In this document: positions 8,024 through 63,973 of the stretch, one piece after another
How the letters are laid out: every line of letters begins with the position of its first letter
How positions within the stretch are numbered: the first letter of the stretch is position 1
Source of the DNA: Enterococcus diestrammenae
Lineage (GTDB): Bacteria; Bacillota; Bacilli; Lactobacillales; Enterococcaceae
DNA: 64,000 nt
Assembly (NCBI RefSeq): GCF_009933255.1
Contig: NZ_MAEI01000011.1
Location: forward strand, 48,381-112,380
Reading direction: 5' to 3'
Notes under the pieces: generated by a model
What the model was told of the DNA's origin: nothing
Seen by the model: the letters and a program-made list of their open reading frames with translations, nothing else
The model's database searches: none
Translations under genes and position numbers: made by a program

Positions 8024-8057
8024 AGAGTCATCTGGCAATCGTGCGCGCAAATAAGCT

Positions 8058-8178
8058 CTATCTTCTTTATCCAGACTTTACTGTCGGTATCGGAATTGCA
8101 CCGATTCAACCGCCGCAGTACGACGGGTCGTGGACTATACCACCGGTCGGGAATTTCACCCTGCCCCTGAAGACGAAC
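8058..8178 (-). promoter_or_regulatory. FMN riboswitch (RFN element) controlling ribU
   Basis: The minus strand carries the conserved RFN blocks in order: AGGGGCAGGGTGAAATTCCC, GACCGGTGGTATAG, a CCACGACCCG segment, GGTTGAATCGGTGCAATTCC and GATACCGACAGTAAAGTCTGG. A P1 stem pairs TCTTC with GAAGA at the two ends. FMN binding is expected to favour the downstream terminator and turn off ribU. A short open frame across this region is a by-product of the RNA. Confidence 0.96.
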
Positions 8179-15072: not shown

Positions 15073-15078
15073 CAAGTA

Positions 15079-15300
15079 AGAAAACCGAGCAGCCTTGCTT
15101 CCGGAGAATCCCTCAGGTGGTAATCGGGCCGGTAAATGCCAACCAAAGAACAGTCGTATTTTGCTAGTCCATTTTAGCGATTTCTACTTAGATGAACTTG
15201 CAAGGACAAATCCGGTTTACGTGTGACATTTCCCGGTCCAGCTACAGCTATTTCAATTTCTACGGAGCCAAATTTCACCATTCTTGTGTCATCGAAAAAA
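15079..15300. repeat. Dispersed intergenic repeat, copy at 15.1 kb
   Basis: The left module (15079-15197) resembles 43506-43626, sharing the exact blocks CCGGTAAATGCCAAC, TTAGCGATTTCT and CTTAGATGAACT. It is followed directly by the start of the right module (15232-15295, CCCGGTCCAGCTACAGCTATTTC), which resembles 50680-50720. The rest of 15073-15441 holds only the amidase terminator. The position is between convergent genes. Confidence 0.75.
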
Positions 15301-15390
15301 TCAGATGAACTTCTCTATAAACCTTGGTTCTCTATAAACCTTGGTAAAATGAGATTTCATATCGATTAAAACTTATACCTTAATCTATTA

Positions 15391-31883: not shown

Positions 31884-31917
31884 TGCCGGTCTAGCAACCG
31901 TCAACTTAATTACTACG
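31884..31917. repeat. Fragment of the dispersed intergenic repeat (31.9 kb)
   Basis: TGCCGGTCTAGCAACCGTCA with a following AATTACTACG resembles TGCCGGTCTAGCTACCGTCA at 43931. It is the shortest right-module fragment and lies between genes in tandem rather than convergent. Confidence 0.55.
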
Positions 31918-32028
31918 AAACTATAATTCAGCTTTTCCTAAAAATCAGTATCAGAGTAGATTTGCCTCCTAATTTTCGGTATGTTAGCTTTTTGATGCTT
32001 AAGTTTGTATAATTCCCTGATTTATTAG

Positions 32029-32066
32029 AAAAGAGCGTTGGTCTCACTCATACCAGCGCTCTTTTT
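32029..32066 (-). terminator. Intrinsic terminator of the flavin disulfide reductase gene
   Basis: Arms AAAAGAGCG and CGCTCTTTTT with an inner GGT/ACC pair; the minus strand gives CGCTCTTTTC. Confidence 0.78.
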
Positions 32067-39440: not shown

Positions 39441-39483
39441 GCATGCTTGGCTTAATCAGCATCAAGTTCTTATAGGCTACGAA

Positions 39484-39592
39484 GCAAAATTCCACCTTTT
39501 TCGTAATATCACAATGACGGCGTGATACGCCACTTATATCGTGAACCATCAGCCGTTTTAGAGCTTAATTTTTTATATGTTCATTATCTATT
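39484..39592. repeat. Dispersed intergenic repeat, right module at 39.5 kb
   Basis: This matches 43970-44076 and 50735-50822 in order: TTCCACCTTTTTCG, ATATCACAATG, CGTGATACGCCACTTA, GTGAACCATCAGCC and TTAATTTTTTATATGTTCAT, then TTATCTAT. It ends at the A-run of the mvaE terminator and lies between convergent genes. Confidence 0.75.
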
Positions 39593-39637
39593 AAAAACGA
39601 GCCCGTTTCCAGCACTACACTAGAAAGGGCTCGTTTT
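39593..39637 (-). terminator. Intrinsic terminator of mvaE
   Basis: Arms AAAACGAGCCC and GGGCTCGTTTT with a 22-base loop; the minus strand then reads TTTTAATAG. Confidence 0.82.
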
Positions 39638-39650
39638 ATTGGGAAAAGTC

Positions 39651-42089
39651 TTATTTTCTTTGACGAAGTTCAGCTAATAATGCTTTAGCTGTAGCTTCAT
39701 TTTTTTGAGGAGCCGTTTTCAATAAACGACTCAGTTGGGAAACTTCTTCACCTACTGCTCCAACTGCCATGGCCAACGAGCGGACTTGTAACCCCATGTG
39801 TCCTTGTTGAATTCCTTCCGAAACCAGCGCTCGCAAGGCCGCCAAATTTTGTACAAGTCCGGCGGCTACGATAACTTGCGCTAGTTCAGTAGCAGAAGAT
39901 ACCTTTAGGATTTGCAAAGCTGCTTGCGCTTTTGGCAAGACTCGAGTACCTCCTCCTACCGTAGCAACTGCTAAAGGCAAGGTCAATTGTCCCACCAAAT
40001 TATCCCCCACAACTTGCCATTGGCTTAAGCCTCGATATTGTCCCGAGTGTGCCGCATAAGCATGACAAGCTGCGGCTTGGGCTCGGGTATCATTCCCCGT
40101 TGCCAATAATATGCCATCTACGCCATTCATAATTCCTTTATTATGAGTGGTTGCACGATAAGGATCCAACTGTGCAAAATCAGAAGCAGCAGCGATTTTG
40201 GCAGCCACCTCTGCCCCATTTCCCCCTCGATTTAGATGGGTGATAGGTACTGAACAAGTGGCAGTCACTAAGGATTCTGTGGTGAGATTGGATAAAATAC
40301 TCATCAAAATCCCTTCATTGGGAAGTTTTTGACGTAAATAATCAGCACAAGCTTCCAACATCGTATTCAGTAAATTTGCACCCATCGCATCTTTTGTATC
40401 CACCAAAAAATCTACAGAGACAAAGCTTGATCCCACTGCCCGAAGTTGGATCTCTTGAAGACCGCCTCCTCGTTGATAAATCGATGGATAGGCCTCACGG
40501 GCACAGGCAAACAACGCCGCCCGCAACGATTCAATGGTTTTGATAAGCGCTTGTTGATCAATGATTTGCTGTAAGACAATCTGCCCGCGAACAAATCGTT
40601 GGGGCATTTCCACCGTGATATTACTAGCCATCTTACTACCATAATTCATCGCAGCAATCACGGAAGGTTCCTCAGTAGCCACTGGTACGGTGTAGGTTTT
40701 ACCATTCACAGTCAATTGCGGGACTAACCCTAACGGAATCTCCACCTCACTGATACGGTTTTCGATAAGATGGTCAGCCACTTCTTCGGCCAAAGCCGTT
40801 TTTTCTAGTTCCTTTTTTACTTCCTCATTGATGACTTCGTTTTGCAGAAGTCGCTCTAACCGTTCTTCAGTGGTTAACTCATAAAACCGATGGCGTTTTT
40901 TTTTTGCTGTTTCCTCAGTTTTTTTTGGGGGAACGGCTTCAATCAAAATGGCTAATCCTAACCCGCCACCGATACACAAAGAAGCGACGCCATAACGTTT
41001 TTGATGGGTTTGCAATTGGTGGCTTAAACTTGTTAAAATCCGAGCACCCGTTGCACCGATGGCATGCCCCAATGAAATCCCGCCACCGTAAATATTGACT
41101 TTCTCTGGTGGAAGTTTGAGTTCGCGTTCTACCACGATAGAAGATGCCGCAAAGGCTTCGTTGATTTCAAAAAGATCGACATCCGCCACTGTTAGATTCG
41201 CTTTTTTTAGTAATTTTTGAATCGCTTGAATCGGAGAAATCCCCATAATACTTGGGTCGATACCGACTTCAGCTGTTTCACGAATCACTGCTAAATAAGG
41301 GATTTGGTGCTGATCAGCATAGTCTTTCGATGCCAATAACAACGCCGCAGCCCCGTCATTAATGGTGGAAGCATTGCCGGCAGTCACGGTACCCTCAGCT
41401 TTAAAGGCTGTTTTTAAAGTGGCGAGTTTTTCAACACTGGAATCTGGTCGAACCCCTTCATCGGCTGTCATCACCCCGTCAGGAAGTTGGACGGGGATGA
41501 TTTCTGGAGCAAAAGCCCCGGTTGCTTGAGCAGTGGCAGCTTTTTTTTGGGAAGCTACCGCAAAAGCATCTTGTTCTTGTCTGGTTACATGAAATTCTTC
41601 AGCAACTTTTTCGGCTGTTAACCCCATGTGTTGTCCGCTGTCAGCATCTGTCAAGCCATCAATAATCATGCTGGCTAGCGGTTCGCCATACCCGCCTGTA
41701 GCAGCATCGTAAGGCAAGAGTTTTGGCGCATTGGTCATGCTTTCAATTCCACCGACTAAAACTACTTCGGCTTCGTCTAATAAGATAGCTTGACGACCAA
41801 ACATGACGGCTTTCAAACCGGAACCACACACTTCATTGATGGTGGTCGCTGGTACCGTGTTGGCCAAGCCACTGGTTAAAGCTACTTGGCGTGCCGGATT
41901 TTGGCCATTCCCCGCCTGCAAGACATTGCCAAAATAGACCTGGGTAATGTCTTTTTTGAGGCTTGGATATTTTCTTAATAATGCTTGGGTTACCTGGGTC
42001 CCCAATTCCACCGCGGTCAAATCTTGTAAACCGCCACGAAATTTTCCAATCGGGGTACGTAGTCCGTCTATAATGACAACTTCTTTCAA
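39651..42089 (-). CDS. mvaE: Bifunctional acetyl-CoA acetyltransferase/HMG-CoA reductase MvaE
   Basis: An 812-residue fusion of the first and third mevalonate pathway enzymes, as in Enterococcus faecalis MvaE. The thiolase half (1 to about 390) has the active-site C88 in NEVCGSGLKA, NASTINDGAAALL, and the C-terminal CIGGGLGLA. The class II HMG-CoA reductase half (about 405-812) has TEEPSVIAAMNYG, KDAMGANLLN, RATTHNKGIMNGVDG and HMGLQVRSLAM. Start TTG at 42089, six bases after GGAGGTG; upstream in-frame codons lack a site. It is divergent from mvaS across 265 bases. Together they make mevalonate from acetyl-CoA. Confidence 0.97.
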   Translation of the reverse strand: MKEVVIIDGLRTPIGKFRGGLQDLTAVELGTQVTQALLRKYPSLKKDITQVYFGNVLQAGNGQNPARQVALTSGLANTVPATTINEVCGSGLKAVMFGRQAILLDEAEVVLVGGIESMTNAPKLLPYDAATGGYGEPLASMIIDGLTDADSGQHMGLTAEKVAEEFHVTRQEQDAFAVASQKKAATAQATGAFAPEIIPVQLPDGVMTADEGVRPDSSVEKLATLKTAFKAEGTVTAGNASTINDGAAALLLASKDYADQHQIPYLAVIRETAEVGIDPSIMGISPIQAIQKLLKKANLTVADVDLFEINEAFAASSIVVERELKLPPEKVNIYGGGISLGHAIGATGARILTSLSHQLQTHQKRYGVASLCIGGGLGLAILIEAVPPKKTEETAKKKRHRFYELTTEERLERLLQNEVINEEVKKELEKTALAEEVADHLIENRISEVEIPLGLVPQLTVNGKTYTVPVATEEPSVIAAMNYGSKMASNITVEMPQRFVRGQIVLQQIIDQQALIKTIESLRAALFACAREAYPSIYQRGGGLQEIQLRAVGSSFVSVDFLVDTKDAMGANLLNTMLEACADYLRQKLPNEGILMSILSNLTTESLVTATCSVPITHLNRGGNGAEVAAKIAAASDFAQLDPYRATTHNKGIMNGVDGILLATGNDTRAQAAACHAYAAHSGQYRGLSQWQVVGDNLVGQLTLPLAVATVGGGTRVLPKAQAALQILKVSSATELAQVIVAAGLVQNLAALRALVSEGIQQGHMGLQVRSLAMAVGAVGEEVSQLSRLLKTAPQKNEATAKALLAELRQRK

Positions 42090-42354
42090 ATTTGCCACCT
42101 CCAACTTGCAATATACCATTTTAAAGCCCAAAAACAAATACTCTCTTCTCCAGTGTCCGCTGACAATTAAAAAGTTTTAACAAACTTTAAATAATCAATT
42201 TTTACTACCGCTTTTTGCTGTTTTTATGCTAACGTTAAGAAGGAATTTTTTCCTTGTAAAAATAAGCCTATTCCTGTTACCATTGCCCTTTCAGGAATAA
42301 ACCGAGCCTGCTTTTTACATAAACCATCCCATCACACTATCAAGGAGGTCCTAT

Positions 42355-43506
42355 ATGACTGCAGGGATTGATAAACTCAATTTTTTTGTACCACCTTACT
42401 ATTTAGAGATGACAGAGTTGGCCAACGCGCGCAACGTGGACCCAGCCAAATACACCATTGGTATCGGTCAAGATCAGATGGCCATCTCTCCAATCACCCA
42501 AGATATCATCACCTTAGCCGCCAATGCAGCCCAACCAATCTTAACTGACGAGGATCGTCAAACCATCGATTTAGTCATCCTCGGAACCGAATCCAGTGTC
42601 GATGAATCCAAAGCCGCCGCTGTCGTTTTGCATCGCCTGTTAGGGATTCAACCCTTCGCACGAGGGATTGAATTAAAAGAAGCCTGTTATAGCGCAACAG
42701 CTGGCCTCCAGTTTGCCAAAGAGTACGTCTTGGCTCATCCCGAGCGGAAAGCCTTGGTGATTGCCTCTGACATTGCGCGATACGGCTTACACTCAGGAGG
42801 AGAACCGACCCAAGGTGCTGGCGCCGTGGCTATGTTAGTAACTAGTCAACCGCGGATTTTAGCTCTCTCTGATGAAAGTGTCCCCTACACCCAAGATATC
42901 TATGATTTTTGGCGTCCAACAGGGGAACCTTATCCTGTGGTCAACGGCCCGCTTTCAAATCAAACCTATATCCAAGCTTTCGAAACCGTCTGGCAAGAAT
43001 ACCAGCAACGATATCAAAAAACATTGGCTGATTTTGCCGCTCTCGCTTTTCATATTCCATATACAAAAATGGGCAAAAAGGCCTTGCTGGCAGGCTTGGC
43101 ACAGGAATCTGAAGCAGAACAAAATCGCATCCTAGCTCAATACGAAGAAAGTATTCGTTACAGCCGTCGCGTGGGCAACCTCTATACCGGTTCTTTGTAT
43201 CTTGGCTTGATTTCTCTCTTAGAAAATAGCCAAACGTTAAAAGCAGGGGACAAACTTGGCTTATTTAGCTATGGTTCTGGCGCTGTTGCTGAATTTTTCA
43301 CAGGACGACTAGTGCCGGGATATCAAGAGCATCTGCTGACTGACGCCCACGAAGCCCTGCTTGCAAATCGCCAGGCATTATCCGTGGCAGCTTATGAAGA
43401 AGTATTCCAAACTCCTCTAACCAACGAAAACTTAACTGCCTCGACCGATACGACCGCTTTTCGTCTTACTGCGGTAAATGACCATATTCGCTATTACCAA
43501 GAATGA
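42355..43506 (+). CDS. mvaS: Hydroxymethylglutaryl-CoA synthase MvaS
   Basis: A 383-residue enzyme that condenses acetoacetyl-CoA with acetyl-CoA. Catalytic residues are E79 (LGTESS), C111 (KEACYSATAG) and the histidine in AFHIPYTKMGKKAL. The GQDQMA, YDFWRPTGEPYPVV and GLFSYGSGAVAEFF segments are typical of the enterococcal enzyme. The ATG follows AAGGAGG. Divergent placement from mvaE in a shared 265-base control region suggests co-regulation. A perfect hairpin lies further downstream at 43848-43885. Confidence 0.97.
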   Translation: MTAGIDKLNFFVPPYYLEMTELANARNVDPAKYTIGIGQDQMAISPITQDIITLAANAAQPILTDEDRQTIDLVILGTESSVDESKAAAVVLHRLLGIQPFARGIELKEACYSATAGLQFAKEYVLAHPERKALVIASDIARYGLHSGGEPTQGAGAVAMLVTSQPRILALSDESVPYTQDIYDFWRPTGEPYPVVNGPLSNQTYIQAFETVWQEYQQRYQKTLADFAALAFHIPYTKMGKKALLAGLAQESEAEQNRILAQYEESIRYSRRVGNLYTGSLYLGLISLLENSQTLKAGDKLGLFSYGSGAVAEFFTGRLVPGYQEHLLTDAHEALLANRQALSVAAYEEVFQTPLTNENLTASTDTTAFRLTAVNDHIRYYQE

Positions 43507-43632
43507 GAAAGCCGGCCGGTCTTGCTTCCAGAGAATGCCTCGGGTGATAGTGGGACCGGTAAATGCCAACAATAAACAGTTGTCATTTTGCTAGCTCATC
43601 TTAGCGATTTCTGCTTAGATGAACTGTATGCG
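43506..43632. repeat. Dispersed intergenic repeat, left module at 43.5 kb
   Basis: It resembles 15079-15197 over its full length. It contains the hairpin CTCATCTTAGC...GCTTAGATGA (43590-43632), whose counterpart at 54888-54930 has changed both arms in a compensating way. Confidence 0.75.
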
Positions 43633-43847
43633 CAATGGTCTTTTAGCCCTCGGACATCCTTAACACTACACCCCGAGTCATTCTCCTCCAGCAAGTCCGC
43701 CCTGTTTTATCGATAAGCGATTTATTCTCTTTGCTCCGTAAATCCAGCAAATCATTTTCTTGTAGGGTAGCAGATGTACCGTGAAAAAGGTGAGATTTAT
43801 AAGAGTAGAATTGGATTGACAGTAGCTCTAAAGATGCGTAATGAACT

Positions 43848-43885
43848 ACTTAGAGTAAGTGGTGCTTGCACCACTTACTCTAAGT
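43848..43885. terminator. Perfect 38-base hairpin, possible mvaS terminator
   Basis: Arms ACTTAGAGTAAGTGGTGC and its exact complement, separated by TT. Only three T follow on the plus strand, so termination efficiency is uncertain. Confidence 0.5.
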
Positions 43886-43930
43886 TTGAATGCGCAAGGC
43901 AAAAGACAAACAGATTTTTCGTTCGGCTTT

Positions 43931-44076
43931 TGCCGGTCTAGCTACCGTCAACCCAATTCATACGGAGATAAATCCCACCTTTTTCGGGCATCACAATGTC
44001 GGCATGATAGGCCACTTAATTCCTGATACATCAACCTTTTTGGAGTTTAATTTTTTTATAAGGTTTTTATCTATAA
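43931..44076. repeat. Dispersed intergenic repeat, right module at 44.0 kb
   Basis: The longest right module: TGCCGGTCTAGCTACCGTCA, CCCACCTTTTTCGGGCATCA, CATGATAGGCCACTTAATTC and TTAATTTTTTTATAAGG, ending TTATCTAT. It ends ten bases before the rbsK terminator. Confidence 0.78.
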
Positions 44077-44085
44077 AATAGCAAA

Positions 44086-44132
44086 CTGCCAACTGACTTA
44101 TCACCTTTAACCGGTGATAAGTCAGTTGGCAG
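44086..44132 (-). terminator. Intrinsic terminator of rbsK
   Basis: Twenty-base arms beginning CTGCCAACTGACTTATCACC and its complement around a seven-base loop. Confidence 0.85.
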
Positions 44133-44198
44133 CTTTTATTTATCCTAACAGATCAAACTTGACTGTTGACCAAAATAGCTTAGTAGCGAACGGCAAGC

Positions 44199-45110
44199 TT
44201 ATTTTGCTTCAGTTTGGGCAATGAGGTCGGCTAATTGCTTTGGGGTCGGCATTGCGCTTTGAGCACCCATTTTGGTGACTGACAGTGTTGCACCATATGT
44301 CGCTTTTTTCACAGCAGCGTCTAAGTTTTCCCCTTTTGCCAAGGCAGCTGCCAAAATACCATTGAAAGTATCTCCTGCACCAGTGGTATCTGCCACCGCG
44401 ACTTTCGGAGCTACGACGGTTTTGACCGTACCATCGCAAACATAAGAAACTCCCGCACCACCGCGAGTCACGATCAAGTGAGTCTTATGGGTTTGAGCCC
44501 ATGCCAACATCGCTGTCTCCACCTCATAGACCCCTCGTTTGCTACCAATCATCCGTCCAAACTCGGTTTCATTTGGTGTGATGTAATCTAAATAAGGAAG
44601 CATCCCTTGTACCTCATCTGTGTATGGGGCTGGGTTTAAAATCGTCACGAGGCCCTTTGACTTACCACGTTGCAACGCATCCAAAACCGTGGCAGGAGGA
44701 ATTTCCAGTTGCGCTAACAGAACATCAGCCTTAGCCAGCATCTCATCTTTTAAATCGGCAGGTGTAACCAATTGATTGGCACCTGGCAAGACGACGATAG
44801 CATTGTCTTCCGGCAATTTCATAATGGCCGCCGTACCAGTAAGTGCAGTGGCTTCCCGCTTCACTTGGGACATCTCAACTTGGGCCATATTCATATGAAT
44901 CAATAGTTTGTCCCCAAAAGTATCATTGCCAACTTTGCCTACCAACGAGACCGCTTCTCCCATCTTGGCACAGGCCACTGCTTGATTGGCTCCTTTGCCT
45001 CCAAAAAAGTAGTTAACCTCATCCCCCAAGACCGTTTCCCCGATAGCCGGCATGTGAGCAACTTCCATTACGATATCCATATTGAGACTACCAATTACTA
45101 AGACCGTCAT
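44199..45110 (-). CDS. rbsK: Ribokinase RbsK (PfkB family)
   Basis: A 303-residue sugar kinase making ribose 5-phosphate from ribose and ATP. Motifs are the N-terminal GSLNMDIVMEV, substrate-binding FFGGKGANQAVACAKMG, and the anion hole with catalytic base DTTGAGDTFNG near the C-terminus. PfkB relatives for other sugars or nucleosides cannot be excluded, but the first motif fits ribokinase well. The start overlaps the stop of the acetyltransferase gene by four bases. No ribose transporter or repressor is adjacent, which is unusual for rbs operons. Confidence 0.88.
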   Translation of the reverse strand: MTVLVIGSLNMDIVMEVAHMPAIGETVLGDEVNYFFGGKGANQAVACAKMGEAVSLVGKVGNDTFGDKLLIHMNMAQVEMSQVKREATALTGTAAIMKLPEDNAIVVLPGANQLVTPADLKDEMLAKADVLLAQLEIPPATVLDALQRGKSKGLVTILNPAPYTDEVQGMLPYLDYITPNETEFGRMIGSKRGVYEVETAMLAWAQTHKTHLIVTRGGAGVSYVCDGTVKTVVAPKVAVADTTGAGDTFNGILAAALAKGENLDAAVKKATYGATLSVTKMGAQSAMPTPKQLADLIAQTEAK

Positions 45111-45721
45111 CTTAATCCCTCCCCGTTTGGCAATTGTTCTTCACTGGACAACTGACGAATCACTTGGCAAGGCGTCCCGAAAGCTAGCACATTGGCTGGC
45201 ACGTCTTTAGTCACTAGCGAATGCGCACCAATAACGGTGTTTTCTCCGATAGTTACCCCAGGCAGCACGGTTACACCAGCCCCTAACCACACGTTATCCC
45301 CGATAGTTACCGGTTTATTAAATTGCGCCGCTTGCCGACGTAACTCCGGTGATAAGGGATGCCCCGCTGTACATAAGCTCACATTTGGCCCCATCATCAC
45401 GCGATCCCCGATCATAATTTTCGTATCATCCACCAAAGTTAAATGGGAATTGGCATAAACGCCTTTGCCAAAATAAGTATTTTTGCCCCAATTAGCAGAA
45501 AAGGGTGGTTCAATATAAGAGCCCTCACCAAAGGCTCCTAGTAATTTTTCCAAGATTGCTTGTTTTTCCGCTGTTTTACTAGGCAAGGTATGATTAAACT
45601 GAAACAACAGGTCTCGATAGCCCGCCTGTTCTGCCAATATTTCTTCATTTTCAAAATAGATTTCACCAGAAGCCATCTGTTCCTTGATTGCCTCCGTTTG
45701 TTTACTTTGCATTTCTTTCAC
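45107..45721 (-). CDS. Sugar O-acetyltransferase (maltose/galactoside type)
   Basis: A 204-residue left-handed beta-helix acetyltransferase of the Maa/LacA/NodL group. An N-terminal helical region (MASGEIYFENEEILAEQAG) is followed by hexapeptide repeats such as NTYFGKGVYANSH and GPNVSLCTAGHPLSPELR, which holds the catalytic histidine. Further elements are VWLGAGVTVLPGVTIG and GAHSLVTKDVPANVLAFG. It acetylates non-metabolised sugars in the family model. Start GTG at 45721 behind AGAGGA at five bases. It is coupled to rbsK by a four-base overlap, so a sugar-related function is likely. Confidence 0.88.
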   Translation of the reverse strand: MKEMQSKQTEAIKEQMASGEIYFENEEILAEQAGYRDLLFQFNHTLPSKTAEKQAILEKLLGAFGEGSYIEPPFSANWGKNTYFGKGVYANSHLTLVDDTKIMIGDRVMMGPNVSLCTAGHPLSPELRRQAAQFNKPVTIGDNVWLGAGVTVLPGVTIGENTVIGAHSLVTKDVPANVLAFGTPCQVIRQLSSEEQLPNGEGLR

Positions 45722-46203
45722 CAAAATCCTCTCACTTTTCAAAGACTGCCTTTTTCAGTCGCTATTTTCCTCCGCTATTATACCATGTTTCCCTGCTGAG
45801 ATACGGTTTGAAAAAGAGAAAAAACGAAAGGCTCAAGACATTCTAGCAGCCAAGCATGGTCAGCCCTGGTATGAGATTAGCTAGAAAAGTGACGCTGGCA
45901 TAAAAGCCATTATTCTACACCGAGAACACCAAGCGAAAAAAGGACTGAAGAAGCCCGTTTCCTTTAACATTTGCTAGCAAAGTAGCGACATACCAAACAC
46001 TGGCCTACTCCCTTTGGCCTTTAGAAAACGCAAAATGACAGATCCCCCGCTCATTTAATCTTGGTCTTTAAACTTTTTGGAATTTTGAAAAACAGCTTAA
46101 TTGCTAAAAAAAGAGTGATTCCTGATCAATCATCAGAAACCACTCGCAACTATGACTTACTTCCCTGACTAACTTACTTATTTACAAATCAAAATTTTGA
46201 ACC
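45722..46203. other. Non-coding gap before rbsK operon, possible gene remnant
   Basis: About 480 bases. Plus-strand codons 45798-45884 read RFEKEKKRKAQDILAAKHGQ and continue PWYEIS-stop, protein-like but without a start codon. The terminator of the ABC exporter lies at 46104-46145. Otherwise no signal was recognised. Confidence 0.5.
46104..46145 (-). terminator. Intrinsic terminator of the ABC exporter gene
   Basis: Minus-strand arms GAGTGGTTTCTGAT and GATCAGGAATCACTC, with a few mismatches and a short loop, followed by seven T. Confidence 0.83.
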
Positions 46204-48546
46204 TTAATCTGCCCGCAACGCGATTGCAGCATCTTTTTTCGCTGCCATACGAGCCGGGATATGGCCGCCCAGAATCGTCAAGACAGTGGAGACCACCACC
46301 AAGATTAACGCGTGCCCCAAATCTAGTTGGGCGACATTTTTCAATTCCGTCAACCGATAAATCACGGCATTGATTGGGAAGGTCAAGAGATAAGCAATCC
46401 CGATTCCTAATAATCCGGAAAAAACTCCGAGAATAGCCGTCTCCGCATCAAAGACCCGAGTGATATCTTTTTTGCGGGCCCCTAAAGCTTTTAAGACCCC
46501 GATTTCTTTCGTACGTTCGATTACCGAAGTATAAGTGATGATGGCAATCATAATCATACTGGTAAACAAAGAAATACCTGCAAAAGCGACGAGAACATAA
46601 GTGATAGCATCCATCACCCCTCCTGTCAGTTGGGTCATAGTACCAGCCAAATCAGAATAAATAATCTGTTCTTTTTTTGACTTGCCTGCATTCCATTTGT
46701 CCAAGTAGTCCAAGACTTTCTCTTTGTCTTTGAAGTTATTGGGATAAATCATCATCGAATAAGGCACTTCACTAGCCCCGAGGTAATCCAAGAAATTACT
46801 CTTAGTCGCCTCATCCAACGCTTCATTGCTCATGACATTGACATCACTAGCTTGTTGGGCTTTGACAATTGCTGATTGTTGATTTTCAGCAATCACAGAC
46901 TGGGCTAGACTATCGGAATAAGCAACACCAGGAGCCAATAAATCCATATTAGAAGACGATTTTGCTCGCAAAATCCCAGCGATTGTCAACTCCCGATTGT
47001 CTTTATTGTCATAAACGGCTGCTAAATCTTGGTTAGGAATGAAATTTCCGGTAGGTAACTTCGTATAGTAGGCATCATTGGCAATCAATTTCATCTTAGT
47101 ACCAAGAACATCATCAAAAGCCAGCTTGTCACCATCTGCCACATCAAAGCCCAGATTTTTTAAAGCATTAATGTTGATATTATTACTTTTATCAACCACT
47201 AATACCAAGTCTGTCTCTGCTTCTGGATAGCTTCCTGCTAATAATTTATAGTTGTCCTTAAGAAAGTTGGTTCCGTCTTTTTCCAATTGCTTAGGAAATG
47301 AAGAGACTCCTACCCCAGTCATGGAAGACATCATCGACATCATGGAGCCCGTTTCGGAATTTTCTGGTGCATTGTTGGATAAAGTCACTTGTTGGACTTT
47401 GCCATCCACTTCTCGCATCAAGTTTAAATTGACCAACCGCGTGTAGCCGATATTATTAGACAGTTCCGGATCGATGTCATTGATATAGGCCACGTATTTC
47501 TCGTCCAACTGATTGGTGTGCTGCGCTTTATCGGCATCACTAGTCTTGGCGGTCAGTGTTTTTTCAGAAGGAAAAGTCGCTTTAGCCGTAGTCGAGGCTA
47601 ACCCTTCTGGATCATTATCCGTGGTCACTTTGGTAATAGTGATGGGGAACTTGGCTAAGGCCTCAGACTGGGTAGCATCGATTTGCTTTTGAAAACCATT
47701 GGACAAGGATAAAACTACAGCGATACCAATGATCCCGATACTGGAGGCAAAGGCCGTCAAAAACGTCCGTCCTTTTTTAGTCCGGATATTGTTAAAAGAC
47801 AAATGCAGTGCAGTGCTAAATTTCATCTTGGTATGCTTCAAGTTAAACATATCCGGTTTGGAACGTTCTTTGTGGGGATGGGAATCATGGCGAATCTGAC
47901 CATCAGAAAACTCGATGATACGATCAGCGTATTCTTTTGCCAATTGGGGATTGTGGGTCACCATGATGACCAGCTTTTCTTGTGACAACTCTTGAATCAG
48001 TTTCATGATTTGGACACTAGTCTCTGAATCCAAAGCACCAGTGGGTTCGTCACACAATAAAATATCTGGATCGTTGGCCAACGCTCTGGCAATAGCTACC
48101 CGTTGCATTTGTCCACCAGAAAGCTGGTTTGGCTTCTTGTGCATATGCTCCTTGAGGCCCACCCGTGTCAAAGCTTCTTCAGCTCGCTGCTTTTTCTCTT
48201 CTTTCGAGACGCCACTCAAAGTCATCCCCAACTCCACGTTATCGATGATTCCTAAGTGGCTGATCAGGTTATAGCTTTGGAAGACAAAACCGATGGAATT
48301 ATTGCGATAGGCATCCCAATCGCTATCCTTGAAAGTTTTGGTGGATTTGCCATTGATGACCATATCTCCTGAATCATAATTATCCAAGCCACCAATAACA
48401 TTGAGCATCGTGGTTTTTCCTGAACCACTGGGACCCAAGATAGCGACAAACTCCTGTTTCCGAAAAGCTACCGAAACCCCATCCAAGGCCTTCGTAGTCG
48501 TTTCCCCGGCCTTGTAGTATTTTTTAATATCTTTTAATTCTAACAA
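46204..48546 (-). CDS. MacB-type ABC transporter, ATPase fused to FtsX permease
   Basis: A 780-residue fusion. The ATPase (1 to about 235) has Walker [10 protein letters not shown], the Q-loop FVFQSYNL, signature [15 protein letters not shown], Walker [12 protein letters not shown] and the switch [15 protein letters not shown] membrane helix (about 270-290) is followed by a large extracytoplasmic domain (about 290-640), then three C-terminal FtsX-type helices (about 655-775). This is the mechanotransmission layout of MacB-like exporters. Start TTG at 48546 with AGGAGG eight bases away. It is divergent from a two-component system that probably controls it. Likely roles are peptide or antibiotic resistance, but the substrate is unknown. 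Confidence 0.88.
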
Positions 48547-48670
48547 CAATAAAACCTCCTGCTCATTTAAAGCCATCCCTTGTGGTGAGTAAACAATCCC
48601 TTTGATACTTATTGCGTCCAAATTGGGCCAAAAAAGATGTCTGTTCTTCACAGCACTAGATTAACAGCTG

Positions 48671-48697
48671 TTTATGAACTTAAAATGAATTCATAAA
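48671..48697. promoter_or_regulatory. Candidate response-regulator site between ABC exporter and two-component genes
   Basis: On the minus strand TTCAT recurs with 11-base spacing (TTCATTTTAAGTTCAT), and TTTATGAA/TTCATAAA form an inverted repeat spaced by 11 bases. OmpR-family regulators bind such 11-base-phased direct repeats. Confidence 0.45.
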
Positions 48698-48794
48698 AAG
48701 AACTCCTTTCCTGATACATCTAACCACAAAACATGCTACACTCTAACTGCAAATACGTGATGATTTGCGATTATCTTTAGTGAGGAAAACTGAT

Positions 48795-49475
48795 ATGAAT
48801 CAACTATTAGTAATTGAAGACGAACCAAATTTGCTAAAACTTTATCAACGGGTCTTAACTGATCACCACTTTCAAGTCATTACCGCTGAAAATGGCCAGC
48901 AAGCATTAGAAAAATTAGAAACAAACCATGTCGATTTGATCATCACCGATCTGATGATGCCGACACTAGACGGCTTTACCTTTACCCAGCTTCTACGAGA
49001 CGCCGGCTATGACTTGCCAATCTTGATCATCACCGCCAAGGATAGTTTTGCCGACAAAAAACGCGGCTTTCATCTAGGAGCCGATGACTATATGGTCAAA
49101 CCGGTAAACTTAGAAGAAATGCTGCTACGGGTGGAGGCTTTATTGCGCCGAGCCAAAATTGCCCACGAACAAGAACTAACAGTAGGTGGTACCATACTTA
49201 ATCAGCAGCAGTTGACCCTTACGTCTGCTGGTCAGACGATTTTATTGCGGAACAAAGAGTTTCAATTGCTCTTCAAATTGCTGAGCTATCCCAACAAGAT
49301 ATTTACCCGCCAACAGTTAATGGCAGAAATTTGGGGATTAGATAGCGAAACAGATGAACGGACTATCGATGTTCATATCAAGCGTTTACGGCATCAAGTA
49401 AAAGACAATCCTGACTTTTCGATTGTCACGATCCGTGGACTCGGTTATCAGGCGGTGTTTACACATGAAAAATAA
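48795..49475 (+). CDS. OmpR-family response regulator
   Basis: A 226-residue DNA-binding regulator. The receiver domain has acidic residues E8/D9, the phosphoacceptor D52 (DLIITDLMMP), T80 (IITAKD) and K102 (DDYMVKPVN). The C-terminal winged helix (about 130-226) has ILLRNKEFQLLFKLL and DERTIDVHIKRLRHQ, with the last strand TIRGLGYQAVF. The start is the ATG at 48795, thirteen bases after GAGG. It overlaps the histidine kinase by eight bases. Its probable target is the divergent ABC exporter and itself. Confidence 0.94.
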   Translation: MNQLLVIEDEPNLLKLYQRVLTDHHFQVITAENGQQALEKLETNHVDLIITDLMMPTLDGFTFTQLLRDAGYDLPILIITAKDSFADKKRGFHLGADDYMVKPVNLEEMLLRVEALLRRAKIAHEQELTVGGTILNQQQLTLTSAGQTILLRNKEFQLLFKLLSYPNKIFTRQQLMAEIWGLDSETDERTIDVHIKRLRHQVKDNPDFSIVTIRGLGYQAVFTHEK

Positions 49476-50505
49476 AATTTATTCGAAGCTCTGGATCTAT
49501 TTTTCTTGTCTCATTTTTTTCATGCTAGTCTTTTTTGCAATTTTTATTGTCTTTCTTTTGTATTTTCTGATGCAACTCCACGTTGTGACACCTGGCAAAG
49601 GCAACCAACTGCTAGCGTTTAGTCTGCTACTAGCATTCAGTATCTTAGTCGGCACCTTAGCTTCCACCATTGTCAGCCGTCGCATTTTGGCCCCCATCAA
49701 AGAGTTGACCGAAAACATGAGTAAAGTAGCTACCGGTGATTTTTCTGTTCAGGTGAATCCCAGTCAAAAAGTCGAAGAAATTCAACAGCTTTTTAGTGAT
49801 TTCAATCTCATGGTGGCTGAGCTGAACAGTATCGAAACCTTACGCAATGATTTCGTGGCCAACGTCTCTCATGAGTTCAAAACCCCCATCGCTACCATGC
49901 AAGGCTATATCCAACTGCTACAACAAGGCCATCTTTCCGAAGCGGATACCCAAGATTATTATTCCCGTATCGCAGAAGGCGCTCAGCAATTAACAACACT
50001 GAGCAACAATATTTTACGCCTTACTAAGCTAGAAACCCAAAGCATCCCTTTAGAGCAGCAAGTGTTTCGAATTGATGAGCAAATTCGTGAAGTCATCTTA
50101 TTTCTACAACCCCAGTGGGAAGAAAAACAACTGGCTCTTGACCTACACTTGCCACGAACCACCTATCCTGGTAACGAAGAATTATTATACCAAGTCTGGC
50201 TTAACTTGATGGACAATGCCATCAAATATTCTCGACCGAAAGAGACAGTGACCGTATCTTTAGAAGAAGAGCCGCAGCAACTAGTCATTTCCTTCATTGA
50301 CCGAGGGATTGCTATTCCCGCCGATGAAACCAAACGCATTTTTGACAAGTTTTATCAGGGGGATACCAGCCGCAAAACCGCTGGCAATGGCTTAGGCTTA
50401 ACCTTGGTTAAAGAAATCCTGCAACTTCACGAAGGACGCGTAGCAGCCAAAACTCTCGCCAATCAACAAACCTGTTTCACCGTTTACCTACCAAAGAATC
50501 ATTAA
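49468..50505 (+). CDS. Membrane sensor histidine kinase
   Basis: A 345-residue kinase with two membrane helices (about 10-36 and 48-70) and almost no external loop, which suggests sensing inside the membrane. A HAMP domain (about 72-125) follows. The phosphorylation site is H136 in NVSHEFKTPIATMQ. The ATPase has the N box QVWLNLMDNAIKYS and the G2 box GNGLGLTLVKEI. The G1 box reads DRGIAIP, with Ala where most kinases have Gly. Start ATG at 49468 inside the regulator gene. Intramembrane-sensing kinases often pair with ABC exporters and respond to cell envelope stress. Confidence 0.92.
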   Translation, partial: KNKIYSKLWIYFSCLIFFMLVFFAIFIVFLLYFLMQLHVVTPGKGNQLLAFSLLLAFSILVGTLASTIVSRRILAPIKELTENMSKVATGDFSVQVNPSQKVEEIQQLFSDFNLMVAELNSIETLRNDFVANVSHEFKTPIATMQGYIQLLQQGHLSEADTQDYYSRIAEGAQQLTTLSNNILRLTKLETQSIPLEQQVFRIDEQIREVILFLQPQWEEKQLALDLHLPRTTYPGNEELLYQVWLNLMDNAIKYSRPKETVTVSLEEEPQQLVISFIDRGIAIPADETKRIFDKFYQGDTSRKTAGNGLGLTLVKEILQLHEGRVAAKTLANQQTCFTVYLPKNH

Positions 50506-50842
50506 CTCACACCAAATGTGCAAAAACACCAATAAGGTTTAACATCATTCGCAAAGAACTTTGCTTCATTTTCCACCCAAGCTATCGCCCTAGCCCTCGC
50601 ATCCTTATCCAGGTTAATGCGAATAACCGGCCTCATAAGTCCCAAATGTGCCAAACTTCTAACTTAGACAGACAGATTTCTGGTCCAGCTACGGCTATTT
50701 CAATTGCTAGGTCGTTAAAATGCAGCTCTTTCGTGACAGCAATATGGCAGCATGATATGCCTCTTAATTCCTGAACCATCAGCCTTTTCGGCGCTTCATT
50801 TTTTATAAGTTCGTTATCTATCAGAAAAACACAGGGAGCAGA
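50506..50842. other. Non-coding gap between the kinase gene and yjdF
   Basis: About 340 bases between convergent genes. CCAAATGTGC occurs twice (50517 and 50642 areas). TAGCCCTCGCATCCTTA (50590-50606) resembles 43644-43662. The right repeat module is at 50680-50822 and the yjdF terminator follows. No gene is supported. Confidence 0.65.
50680..50822. repeat. Dispersed intergenic repeat, right module at 50.7 kb
   Basis: TGGTCCAGCTACGGCTATTT resembles 15236. CATGATATGCCTCTTAATTC, CTGAACCATCAGCC and TTCATTTTTTATAAGTTCGT match 39.5 and 44.0 kb. It ends TTATCTAT at the A-run of the yjdF terminator. Confidence 0.77.
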
Positions 50843-50862
50843 TTAATGCCCTCTGTGTTTTT
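50824..50862 (-). terminator. Intrinsic terminator of yjdF, overlapping its last codons
   Basis: Arms AAAAACACAG-GG and CC-CTGTGTTTTT around a 13-base loop; the stop codon of yjdF lies in the loop. Confidence 0.78.
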
Positions 50863-51262
50863 CGTGACGTTTCTTTTGTCGGAGTTCAAATTGCTTTTGT
50901 TTTTCTGCTTCCCGTTGTTCACGACTGCTTTTCTTACATTGCAATTTTCCCTCTTCCTGTTGAAGTTTTAGTGCCTGCTGAGCTTTCGTCCCAATACCAA
51001 CCTCAGAGACTTGCTTCTTAGCCAATTTCTGGAGCCGTTTCGGATTAATTCTCCTAGCACTAACAACCTCAGCTGCGATTGTTGAGCTGAATTTCAAGTG
51101 ATGATATTCGGTCAAAACAAAGTCATAAACCTCATAATCTTTGGGCTCTTTCCCAAAGGTTACTTTGGTGACCTCAATCTTGTCCGCATACCTTCTCTCA
51201 AAAACACCAACCCAGAATGGATTTTCGAACAACACAGTCAATGTTGCACTTATCTTCTCCAT
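50843..51262 (-). CDS. yjdF: YjdF family (DUF2992) protein
   Basis: A 139-residue protein of the DUF2992/YjdF family: an N-terminal beta region (SATLTVLFENPFWVGVFERR), YDFVLTEYHHLKFSSTIAAE, then a long basic coiled-coil tail rich in Lys/Arg/Gln/Glu that ends in HEKHRGH. In Bacillus the gene is controlled by a riboswitch sensing azaaromatic compounds; the protein's role is unknown, though RNA binding is plausible from the basic tail. The ATG at 51262 follows GGAGGG by six bases. A matching leader RNA sits upstream. Confidence 0.85.
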   Translation of the reverse strand: MEKISATLTVLFENPFWVGVFERRYADKIEVTKVTFGKEPKDYEVYDFVLTEYHHLKFSSTIAAEVVSARRINPKRLQKLAKKQVSEVGIGTKAQQALKLQQEEGKLQCKKSSREQREAEKQKQFELRQKKRHEKHRGH

Positions 51263-51289
51263 CACAATCCCTCCTTTATCTTAAATAAG

Positions 51290-51371
51290 AAGAAGGGACA
51301 ACCAAGGAGGCAGGTTACTGACGACTGCTGTCGCTCCCGGACTACCTACCGGGACGTGTTTTTATCTTCTA
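51290..51371 (-). promoter_or_regulatory. Candidate yjdF riboswitch (azaaromatic-sensing RNA)
   Basis: The minus-strand leader shows AGAAG/CTTCT closing pairs, then ACACGTCCCGGTAGGTAGTC, CGGGAGCGACAGCAGTCGTC, and AGTAACCTGCCTCCTTGGTT before the yjdF ribosome binding site. The order and composition fit the yjdF motif RNA as I remember it, and the downstream gene is yjdF. A formal covariance-model match has not been made. Confidence 0.7.
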
Positions 51372-51664
51372 TAGATGATTTTATCACGGATTGGCTCATG
51401 AGCGTGAACTATCAAAAAAAATAACAACTCTCTAGCATCAGGAAGGTTCGTTTCACAAAGAAATAGTTGGGATTGCCTAATAGTTTTACAAAAATGGATA
51501 TTTTTCTTAGCTTTCGTAAGATCACATATTCGTTTTTTTCAATTACATTGTAAAAAGTTCGTCATTTAGGGTCCCCTTTCCACTTTGGCACAAAGCCCTT
51601 TTCAACAAGTTTTCTCCAATCTTCTCAAAAGTCGTACAATTATTCAGAAAATTATGAAATCTAG

Positions 51665-62062: not shown

Positions 62063-62147
62063 GCCGGCGTGGCGGAATTGGCAGACGCGCTGGACTCAAA
62101 ATCCAGTGCCCGTTGAGGGCGTGCCGGTTCGACCCCGGCCGCCGGTA
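62063..62147 (+). tRNA. tRNA-Leu (CAA), plus-strand copy
   Basis: An 85-base class II tRNA with acceptor GCCGGCG/CGCCGGT, anticodon loop CTCAAAA and a variable arm. It is identical in sequence to the copy at 62853-62937 but inverted, and has its own promoter and terminator. CCA is not encoded. Confidence 0.95.
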
Positions 62148-62148
62148 T

Positions 62149-62189
62149 TAACTTCTAACGAATAAAATCGTTAGAAGTTATTTTTTTGC
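62149..62189 (+). terminator. Intrinsic terminator of the plus-strand tRNA-Leu
   Basis: Arms AACTTCTAACGA and TCGTTAGAAGTT around ATAAAA, followed by ATTTTTTT. Confidence 0.92.
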
Positions 62190-62651
62190 TCAAAAACACA
62201 AAAATAAACCCACTTTTTCTAGGCAAGTTGGTTCGCTATTATCTAATATCTATAAATGAATTTCCCTCTTTTTTAACTATATCTATTCTACGATGATTTT
62301 TAGATTATCCTTCATTATTGTTGCCTACTTAGAACTTACATATGTTTTTATCCTTGTATGTCCTACCCAGCTTGCCCCTCTAATTAATCAAGCATTGGTA
62401 AAATAGCAGCATATTTTTCCCCCACTCGAACTGTACGCTGGAGGCTATTAAGCATTTGGAATTCCTAGCCACTGGAAATGGCCACTAGCTGATTCAAGTA
62501 AACAAAAAAGCCTACTATCTTTAAAATTTGATCTTTGCCTTCCCTTTCAAATCTGAATCCTGACTAGCAAAGGACTAATCAGGGTTCTATGATATGTGGT
62601 GCTGTTACTCTCAAATGAGTAAGGACACCAAGTATTTTTTTATAACAAAAA

Positions 62652-62712
62652 GACATTTGGTTGCCCTATAATTAAATCGCCAAACCCAATCATAGGAGGA
62701 TAACCAAATGTC
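62652..62712 (+). promoter_or_regulatory. Inverted repeat masking a ribosome binding site
   Basis: GACATTTGGTT (62652-62662) and AACCAAATGTC (62702-62712) can pair. The second arm contains the ATG at 62708 and adjoins AGGAGG, so the hairpin would hide the start in RNA initiated upstream. Confidence 0.5.
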
Positions 62713-62845
62713 CATAACTAAATATATCAAATGTACTGATGAAAATACAAGTAAATCAATTATTCAGCATGCCTACCAAGATAGCTGGATTCAATTGATC
62801 CCTTTCGACAAAAAAACAAAAAAGACACCAAGATCAACATCTTGA
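62708..62845 (+). CDS. Small unknown frame of 45 codons, possibly a remnant
   Basis: Starts MSITKYIKCTDENTSKSIIQ and ends FDKKTKKTPRSTS. AGGAGG lies seven bases upstream, an excellent site. The C-terminal codons run through the terminator of the opposing tRNA array, so the frame probably was cut short by a rearrangement. It could be the N-terminus of a lost mobile-element protein. No family was recognised. Confidence 0.3.
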   Translation: MSITKYIKCTDENTSKSIIQHAYQDSWIQLIPFDKKTKKTPRSTS

Positions 62846-62849
62846 TGTC
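62811..62849 (-). terminator. Intrinsic terminator of the tRNA array
   Basis: Minus-strand arms GACATCAAGAT and ATCTTGGTGTC (one G-U) with a four-base loop, followed by TTTTTTGTTTTTTT. Confidence 0.87.
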
Positions 62850-62852
62850 AAA

Positions 62853-62937
62853 TACCGGCGGCCGGGGTCGAACCGGCACGCCCTCAACGGGCACTGGATT
62901 TTGAGTCCAGCGCGTCTGCCAATTCCGCCACGCCGGC
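62853..62937 (-). tRNA. tRNA-Leu (CAA), last gene of the array
   Basis: Identical to the plus-strand copy at 62063-62147. Class II tRNA with anticodon CAA; it is the distal gene of the rRNA-linked array. Confidence 0.95.
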
Positions 62938-62962
62938 AAGTTGAAGGATAATAGTAGTACTA

Positions 62963-63033
<71 letters not shown>

Positions 63034-63066
63034 ATTATACTATTGTTTGATTTCTAATGAAACCAA

Positions 63067-63138
63067 CTGGGGTAGCTGGATTCGAACCAACGCATGAGGG
63101 AGTCAAAGTCCCTTGCCTTACCGCTTGGCTATACCCCA
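63067..63138 (-). tRNA. tRNA-Gln (TTG)
   Basis: A 72-base tRNA, acceptor TGGGGTA/TACCCCA, anticodon loop CTTTGAC (TTG), T-loop GGTTCGAATCC. Confidence 0.95.
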
Positions 63139-63146
63139 ATAAGAAG

Positions 63147-63220
63147 GGCGATCGATGGGAATCGAACCCACGAGTGCCGGAGCCACAATCCGGTGCGTTA
63201 ACCACTTCGCCACGATCGCC
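63147..63220 (-). tRNA. tRNA-His (GTG)
   Basis: A 74-base tRNA with anticodon GTG in loop TTGTGGC and an extra 5' G able to pair with the discriminator C, the histidine identity element. The 3' limit may be one base further. Confidence 0.94.
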
Positions 63221-63231
63221 ATAATAAATGG

Positions 63232-63302
63232 CAGGGGTAGCAGGAATTGAACCCACACTAACGGTTTTGGAGACCGCTGTTCTACCTTTAAACTATACCC
63301 CT
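63232..63302 (-). tRNA. tRNA-Trp (CCA)
   Basis: A 71-base tRNA, acceptor AGGGGTA/TACCCCT, anticodon loop CTCCAAA (CCA), discriminator G. Confidence 0.95.
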
Positions 63303-63312
63303 AGGTAAAATA

Positions 63313-63393
63313 TGGAGGAGAGTGGATTCGAACCACTGAACCCGAAGGAACGGATTTACAGTCCGTCGCGTTTAGCCTCTTCGCTACTCCTCC
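63313..63393 (-). tRNA. tRNA-Tyr (GTA)
   Basis: An 81-base class II tRNA, acceptor GGAGGAG/CTCCTCC, anticodon loop CTGTAAA (GTA), long variable arm. Confidence 0.95.
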
Positions 63394-63394
63394 A

Positions 63395-63470
63395 TGGTGG
63401 CGCGGGACAGAATCGAACTGCCGACACATGGAGCTTCAATCCATTGCTCTACCAACTGAGCTACCGAGCC
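63395..63470 (-). tRNA. tRNA-Phe (GAA), with encoded CCA
   Basis: A 76-base tRNA with loop TTGAAGC (GAA) and 3' CCA in the DNA. The acceptor 5' strand is GGCTCGG and the 3' strand CCGCGCC, leaving a U-C mismatch at pair 4-69. Confidence 0.93.
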
Positions 63471-63507
63471 ATACTTTTATTTAAATATAATAATCAAAAC
63501 TTTAAAA

Positions 63508-63583
63508 TGGCGGTCCCGACGGGACTCGAACCCGCGATCTCCTGCGTGACAGGCAGGCGTGATAACCACTACACTACGGGACC
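63508..63583 (-). tRNA. tRNA-Asp (GTC), with encoded CCA
   Basis: A 76-base tRNA, acceptor GGTCCCG/CGGGACC, anticodon loop CTGTCAC (GTC), discriminator G followed by CCA. Confidence 0.95.
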
Positions 63584-63592
63584 AACATTTAA

Positions 63593-63665
63593 TGGGGGTT
63601 AACGGGTTCGAACCGCTGACCCTCTGCTTGTAAGGCAGATGCTCTCCCAGCTGAGCTAAACCCCC
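63593..63665 (-). tRNA. tRNA-Val (TAC)
   Basis: A 73-base tRNA, acceptor GGGGGTT/AACCCCC, anticodon loop CTTACAA (TAC), discriminator A. Confidence 0.95.
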
Positions 63666-63682
63666 AAAAGGTATTTGATTAA

Positions 63683-63754
63683 TGATCCGTACGGGATTCG
63701 AACCCGTGTTACCGCCGTGAAAGGGCGGTGTCTTAACCGCTTGACCAACGGACC
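63683..63754 (-). tRNA. tRNA-Glu (TTC)
   Basis: A 72-base tRNA, acceptor GGTCCGT/ACGGATC with one G-U pair, anticodon loop CTTTCAC (TTC). Confidence 0.95.
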
Positions 63755-63764
63755 AGTAAGACAA

Positions 63765-63854
63765 CGGAGAGTAAGGGATTTGAACCCTTGAGACAGGGTA
63801 TACCCATCTACATGATTTCCAATCATGCTCCTTCGGCCACTCGGACAACTCTCC
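63765..63854 (-). tRNA. tRNA-Ser (GGA)
   Basis: A 90-base class II tRNA, acceptor GGAGAGT/ACTCTCC, anticodon loop TTGGAAA (GGA), long variable arm, discriminator G. Confidence 0.95.
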
Positions 63855-63899
63855 AAATAATAAAGAAGCGCATTACTCTACCATCTCTAAGATAGAGAA

Positions 63900-63973
63900 C
63901 TCCGGCAGTAGGACTCGAACCTACGACATCATGATTAACAGTCATGCGCTACTACCAACTGAGCTATGCCGGA
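63900..63973 (-). tRNA. tRNA-Asn (GTT)
   Basis: A 74-base tRNA, acceptor TCCGGCA/TGCCGGA, anticodon loop CTGTTAA (GTT). It is first after the 5S rRNA. Confidence 0.95.

Follow-up and report, generated by a model that had tools for sequence, protein, structure and literature searches.

A family of intergenic repeats lies in the 64,000-nucleotide stretch of Enterococcus diestrammenae DNA analysed here (the window), which is part of a source genome of 3.16 Mb in 54 contigs. Most testable copies stood behind genes in one orientation, with the right end against the intrinsic terminator of the facing gene. The repeats probably descend from a rolling-circle insertion sequence (IS) of the IS91 family that targets intrinsic terminators, and would be old, modular derivatives of it that are non-autonomous; as part of this explanation, the nickase of the IS91-like element would accept intrinsic terminators as its own origin. 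The single orientation, the location behind genes and the terminator-like ori end (left in the window; the right end is called ter) would all follow if a terminator were accepted as an ori-like nick site. Intergenic repeats of this kind in bacteria, for which a mover is seldom known, would be tied to a named enzyme family and to a testable mechanism, and the intrinsic terminator as a transposon target would explain insertion behind genes without invoking selection.

Comparison within the window by blastn confirmed that three stretches aligned in the first-pass annotation belong to one repeat family (expect values, E, of 2e-16 to 5e-18 among them). The 39484 region matched 43961-44080 (E 3e-17) and 50706-50827 (E 2e-16), and the 43931 region matched the 50680 region (E 5e-18 to 2e-17). 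The 31884 region had matches at E 2e-10 to 1e-6, and the 15232 region matched two longer copies at E 1e-7 to 1e-5 and the 31884 and 39484 copies only at E 0.02-0.5. Further copies were present in the source genome, so that the refuting outcome named in the first-pass annotation, a lack of further copies in the same genome, did not occur. The stretches were real, and their extents had been given too short, with the modular structure overlooked.

The longest window copy (570 bp, minus strand) ran from its ter end at 44073 to its ori end at 43504; the copy was real as first read, and its start was not at 43931. Its outermost ori-end bases (43504-43511) read TGAGAAAG on the plus strand and CTTTCTCA on the minus strand. 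It comprised a first large hairpin at 43508-43710 (the ori hairpin, with outer arms at about 43508-43555 and 43663-43710), a second large hairpin at 43781-43987 with an inner hairpin at 43848-43885, and a ter end of about 90 bases (43985-44073, minus strand) that had no consensus structure and was homologous to IS91-like ter ends. Beyond it lay the A-run (44075-44078) and terminator hairpin (44086-44132, minus strand) of the facing ribokinase-like gene (44199-45110). The other window copies were also on the minus strand: a copy cut on its left side (39475-39590, ter end 39590), with the A-run and terminator hairpin of the facing mvaE-like gene (39651-42137) at 39593-39637 (minus strand); a core-only copy (50680-50820, ter end 50820), with the A-run and terminator hairpin of the facing gene (50843-51265) at 50825-50862 (minus strand); a diverged core-only copy (31884-32024), with an A-run and hairpin next to it at about 32029-32064; and a copy of about 311 bp (15077-15387, ori end 15077) with a second type of ter end (..CTTAATCTA), with an A-run and hairpin from 15390. 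The two short pieces noted earlier at 31884-31917 and 15232-15295 were repeat DNA, the former belonging to a whole core of about 140 bases and the latter to the element with the second type of right end. The shared right end was as described, with ..TTATCTA ending at 39590, 44073 and 50820 and the A-run beginning one or two bases beyond.

The position of the right ends at the terminator of the facing gene, also part of the first reading, held for most testable copies of the genome. A run of at least 4 A adjoined 46 of the 50 testable right ends, and 45 of them also had a fold of -8 kcal/mol or lower behind it (control: 6.1% of 2966 random intergenic readings with A-run and hairpin). The 50 ends came from 57 tails, which were dropped if the model end was below 133 or the flank was too short; among the exceptions, some ends adjoined other repeats or had no plain A-run. 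The next gene on the right-end side faced the element in 46 of the 47 cases with an open reading frame (ORF; 3 without), and the orientation of the left neighbour gene was free (17 plus, 22 minus; n = 39 left ends, taken with an ad hoc filter against internal arms). Two window sites, one between 39374 and 39651 and the other between the mvaS-type gene and the ribokinase-like gene, were empty in two related species (G004 and G001), which there had one terminator between convergent genes (by eye).

Under selection only, an ordinary miniature element would insert widely and its copies behind genes would survive as the least harmful ones. This account is improbable: it leaves the single orientation with a junction at the T-run unexplained, young IS copies in genome G012 occupied the same kind of place, and the left neighbour was free in orientation, even if the copies here are old and diverged (75-92% identity by blastn in their own genome) and the repeats of Streptococcus pneumoniae, for which such a reading has been given, are over-represented between convergent genes (PMC3049150, in excerpt). 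It is rather unlikely that the left genes now retain the repeats as their transcription terminators or as hairpins for RNA stability, a role that may hold alongside derivation from an IS. Of the 17 convergent cases, 10 had a left gene ending at most 43 nt from the element with nothing terminator-like between, and three full copies folded at a predicted -196 to -235 kcal/mol. The arms of the ori hairpin were more complementary within than between copies (34.4 vs. 33.1 of 48; 0 of 2000 permutations, n = 22 copies), an excess that could stem from subfamilies; against such a role, the copies differed in modules and many were truncated.

A structure-free profile built from 31 sequences of the right part led to autonomous relatives; it was searched in 105 genomes of the Enterococcaceae with at most the best 30 candidates per genome scored. 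Besides the source genome, 9 genomes had a profile match at E ≤ 0.01; five of the nine matches look like ter ends (L151, L152, L153, L155 and L159), and the other four (L154, L156, L157 and L158) look like chance. At L152 and L153 an open frame carrying the zinc domain of IS91 (PF14319; 8e-14 and 3e-22) followed closely on the matched end. Full relatives had 434-442 amino acids, with Y2_Tnp (PF04986; 1e-37 to 2e-40) and Zn_Tnp_IS91 (PF14319) in 3 of 3 proteins and HVH and YISRY motifs in 4 of 4 transposases. Judged by their predicted proteins, the autonomous relatives (e.g. L179, L180 and L182) belong to the IS91 family; their N-terminal parts matched the NCBIfam IS91 family below its cut-off. 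By tblastn, relatives were present on 13 plasmids (Pediococcus 5, Enterococcus 4, Cetobacterium 2, Lacticaseibacillus 1, Fusobacterium 1), those of Cetobacterium and Fusobacterium at only about 30% identity, and in 13 of the 105 Enterococcaceae genomes, with 12 matches in G012; of the 27 matches in these genomes, L191, L193 and L199 were not used. The IS copies of G012 were 99-100% identical in amino acids. Eight partial matches in G012 (L204-L211) all ran into N stretches inside the transposase gene, so that truncation is not proven.

The IS elements had the same target as the repeats. Of thirty IS loci examined, 26 were counted as distinct sites; 2 loci duplicated a site already included, and in 2 a ter boundary could not be recognised. 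Two of the sites (L186 and L207) had similar flanks and may not be independent. A T-run stood in front of ter at 25 of the 26 sites, with a hairpin as well at 23 (control at the same loci: 70 of 1679, 4.2%). At two sites, plasmids without the IS were identical to those with it up to exactly ..TTTTTTTA (L180 vs. L212 and L213; L179 vs. L214 and L215), and the junction therefore follows the T-run and A. The base before ter was A at 16 sites, G at 8, T at 2 and C at none (A or G in the G012 copies), and in the repeats A in 24, G in 11, T in 11 and C in 2 (n = 48); after ordinary terminators of the same regions it was G in 74, A in 71 and C in 51 (n = 196; T excluded by construction). The first-pass annotation had suggested an element that targets, or grew from, terminators. 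This was supported, targeting being the better half, with a sharp one-sided junction and a target common to young IS91-like insertions; growth from terminators stands only insofar as the ori end of the element itself consists of a hairpin and a T-run behind it.

The ends linked the repeats to the IS elements directly. On the minus strand, the right end of the repeat aligned without gaps to the ter end of the IS (e.g. TAAAGAACTTATAAAAAATTAAGCTCCAAAAAGGCTG to TAAAGAAAGTATAAAAAGTTAAGGACTAAAAAGGCTG). Against 1000 dinucleotide shuffles, the similarity of 4 of 10 IS ter ends was never reached and that of 3 of 10 was reached 3-4 times (best z 11.3). At the other end, the IS terminated in a hairpin and TTTTCTTA, with 10 distinct flanks behind 13 copies; as the search pattern demanded TTTTCTTA, the information lies solely in the flank changing there. 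No common tetranucleotide was found by eye in the 10 flanks. The repeat ori end, a hairpin and TTTYTTA, compared with the hairpin-TTTTCTTA of the IS through a short motif.

On the minus strand, the order in each copy is the host terminator hairpin, its T-run, a base that is mostly a purine, the ter end (TAGATAAAGAACTTATAAAA..), a changing set of modules with hairpins, and finally the ori hairpin with TTTYTTA. For IS91, transposition is described as beginning with nicking at ori and finishing at ter (PMC5714925 and PMC3189936, both in excerpt). A Y2/HUH transposase acting in trans would nick one strand of the repeat at ori, after the hairpin-TTTTCTTA; the nicked strand would be peeled off as far as ter; and the enzyme would then nick a target of like shape (hairpin, T-run and purine, that is, an intrinsic terminator) and join the ter end there. 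The target (hairpin, TTTTTTTR) and the ori (hairpin, TTTTCTTA) share one kind of structure. With an ori-like terminator shape as the target, the element would always lie behind a gene and in one orientation. The resemblance to ori as the reason for the choice of target is, like mobilisation in trans and the nicking steps, something we infer.

Several observations weigh against derivation from an IS91-like element. No transposase of the IS91-like family was found in the source genome (0 matches, tblastn), nor was a remnant of one in 69 own-genome regions of 271 kb (tblastn, E ≤ 1); within the genus only transposase fragments occurred (G004, G006 and G007), most with stops. As no Y2 transposase was found there, the repeat family is probably immobile in the source genome now. 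Mobility of the repeats is read from the sequence of their ends, and no transposition was observed. Three of the 10 IS ter ends had no significant similarity to the repeat, the second type of repeat end resembled IS ends weakly and was not counted as support, and the interior of the repeats had no similarity to the IS. The resemblance of the ori ends, a short motif and a hairpin, could be convergence. At two of the 30 IS loci, as stated, the ter boundary could not be recognised, and no complete empty IS site was seen: the flank beyond ori was unmatched in the empty plasmids, which must then have been rearranged or joined there.

That a different hairpin-reading enzyme (for example a Y1 transposase of the IS200/IS605 or REP type) mobilised the repeats is quite improbable. 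In these systems the target is 5' of the element and the second cleavage site is inside its 3' end; the repeats have a like arrangement of target and right cleavage site, and hairpins at their ends. One Y1 transposase gene was present in the source genome (Y1_Tnp, G000:C9:1303-1659, L149), but it had two stops, and the ter end of the repeat was homologous to Y2 (IS91-type) elements. Descent from group IIC introns has very little to recommend it. These introns insert behind a DNA stem-loop, the same kind of target (PMC10190682, in excerpt), and consist of a ribozyme and a reverse transcriptase, whereas no group II intron family was matched at Rfam gathering scores in the window, L001, L018, L151 or L153, and the ends of the repeat matched Y2 elements; the common stem-loop target is taken as convergence. 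At the edge of contig C13 of the source genome (L018:1-60), the right end of an element adjoined a stretch that we take to resemble the 3' end of a group II intron, with no Rfam match at gathering score.

Among repeat families, EFAR of Enterococcus faecalis is the nearest by description, the only basis of comparison: its copies are said, after Venditti et al. 2007, to be modular and to insert at stem-loop sequences, and they are intergenic. It differs in that the target is reportedly partly deleted on insertion, and we know of no mover for EFAR. EFAR and the Efa-1 of Petrillo et al. 2008 are probably one family; Efa-1 has 163 bp, 65 intergenic copies and two adjacent stem-loops (PMC2267715, in excerpt). 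In S. pneumoniae, BOX, RUP and SPRITE are species-restricted, intergenic and enriched between convergent genes; BOX is modular and, like RUP, has inverted termini and duplicates its target, and SPRITE is itself terminator-like (PMC3049150, as above). Unlike these, the window element adjoined a separate host terminator, and its ends matched an IS91-like element.

The IS91 family (IS91, IS801, ISCR) resembles the relatives found here, which carry its zinc and Y2 transposase domains; the window repeats differ in having no transposase and a multi-hairpin interior. IS801 has known ter and ori ends and known miniature derivatives, and its targets are given as the tetranucleotides GAAC, GGAC, CAAG and CGAC (PMC3189936, in excerpt), whereas the IS91-like elements here targeted an intrinsic terminator 5' of ter. 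The literature covered, which included few subscription papers, gave no account of terminator targeting by the IS91 family, including the available parts of PMC5714925, PMC3189936, PMC12044253 and PMC1781477. A broader reading is evenly balanced between holding and failing: in a lactic-acid-bacteria branch of IS91-like elements, ori itself would be an intrinsic terminator, hence any terminator would be a landing site, and the branch would seed modular non-coding swarms behind genes. Within that reading, EFAR and other enterococcal repeats confined to one species may belong to this kind too. Throughout the genome, terminators would serve as safe docking sites, recognised as single-stranded hairpins; if the transposase reads a hairpin and T-run in DNA, the target would be structural and not a fixed sequence. 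Terminator targeting would also predict where such elements extend the 3' regions of genes and join plasmids.

On a plasmid of L. paracasei (L182, L218, L219), the IS connected the repB terminator belonging to a small type of plasmid with a treR region; on another plasmid, this region carried an ori remnant. The junction looks like a replicon fusion at the IS.

The source genome had about 70-80 right-end copies. At E ≤ 10, at least 43 blastn matches to the 146-base core (best 40 of 84 candidates scored) and at least 61 to the left part (best 40 of 102 candidates scored) were found in it. The right-part sequence profile had at least 144 matches at E ≤ 0.1 (best 150 of 1336 candidates scored; the count takes in internal inverted arms); of the best 100 (E ≤ 4.5e-5), 78 reached position 120 and 71 reached position 130 of the model (length 141). 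The core had no blastn match at E ≤ 0.001 in the 104 other genomes of the Enterococcaceae (at most the best 8 candidates per genome scored). The left part was matched in three of them (G001, G047 and G061; the 21-base match in G061 looks like chance) and on 11 E. faecium plasmids at 71-76%. The right end occurred on one E. hirae plasmid (81%), there too with AAAAAA and a hairpin next to it. The 591-base element had no match in the phage collection, and the sole viral match to the core pattern (L031) was chance, with 26 aligned bases within an ORF of a viral contig. G001, of the same genus, had hairpin-rich intergenic repeats of its own, with one hairpin module in common with the window family (L120, L123 and L126).

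Long copies were modular and hairpin-rich, of about 310-620 bp, and three of them folded as two large hairpins, each enclosing inner hairpins, whereas roughly the last 90 bases on the right had no consensus structure (31 sequences). Optional or inverted parts were a module of about 60-80 bases within the second large hairpin, whole left halves, and inverted segments. Across 36 left and 48 right ends, the left terminus was a variable base followed by TRARAAARCCGG and the right terminus was ..TTATCTA followed by NNAAAAA; beyond, only the A-run was conserved. On the minus strand the left end was a hairpin followed by TTTYTTA, and 23 of the 36 left ends fitted YTTTYTYA next to the large hairpin. 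Some copies had the second type of tail, ending in ..CTTAGTSTA; its 6 exact pattern matches (6 of 6) and the copy at 15077-15387 adjoined an A-run and a hairpin (by eye). The ends differed (left NTRARAAARCCGG, right TTATCTA) and no clear target duplication was seen by eye, so that the repeats are not miniature inverted-repeat transposable elements in the strict sense.

A TA target duplication of the IS630-like kind, suggested by TA at both ends, was dropped once IS91-like ends explained both. A duplicated A-run was dropped as well, the left A-run being the element's own ori T-run on the opposite strand. A second short repeat (GGCTGAACAAACTTGTTCAGCTCTCGAGAATTAAGGCGAAACTGACACATGA and variants) lay beside or within copies at L023, L025 and L030; at L025 it started with TAAGAAAG, like the ori end.

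The gene at 39651-42137 matched acetyl-CoA acetyltransferase/HMG-CoA reductase and the gene at 42355-43506 matched HMG-CoA synthase, an mvaE/mvaS-type pair typical of enterococci. The mvaS stop codon (TGA, 43504-43506) fell within the outermost bases of the element. The window also held an FMN riboswitch (8056-8178), a yjdF-type riboswitch (51278-51375) and 13 tRNA matches (62063-63973).
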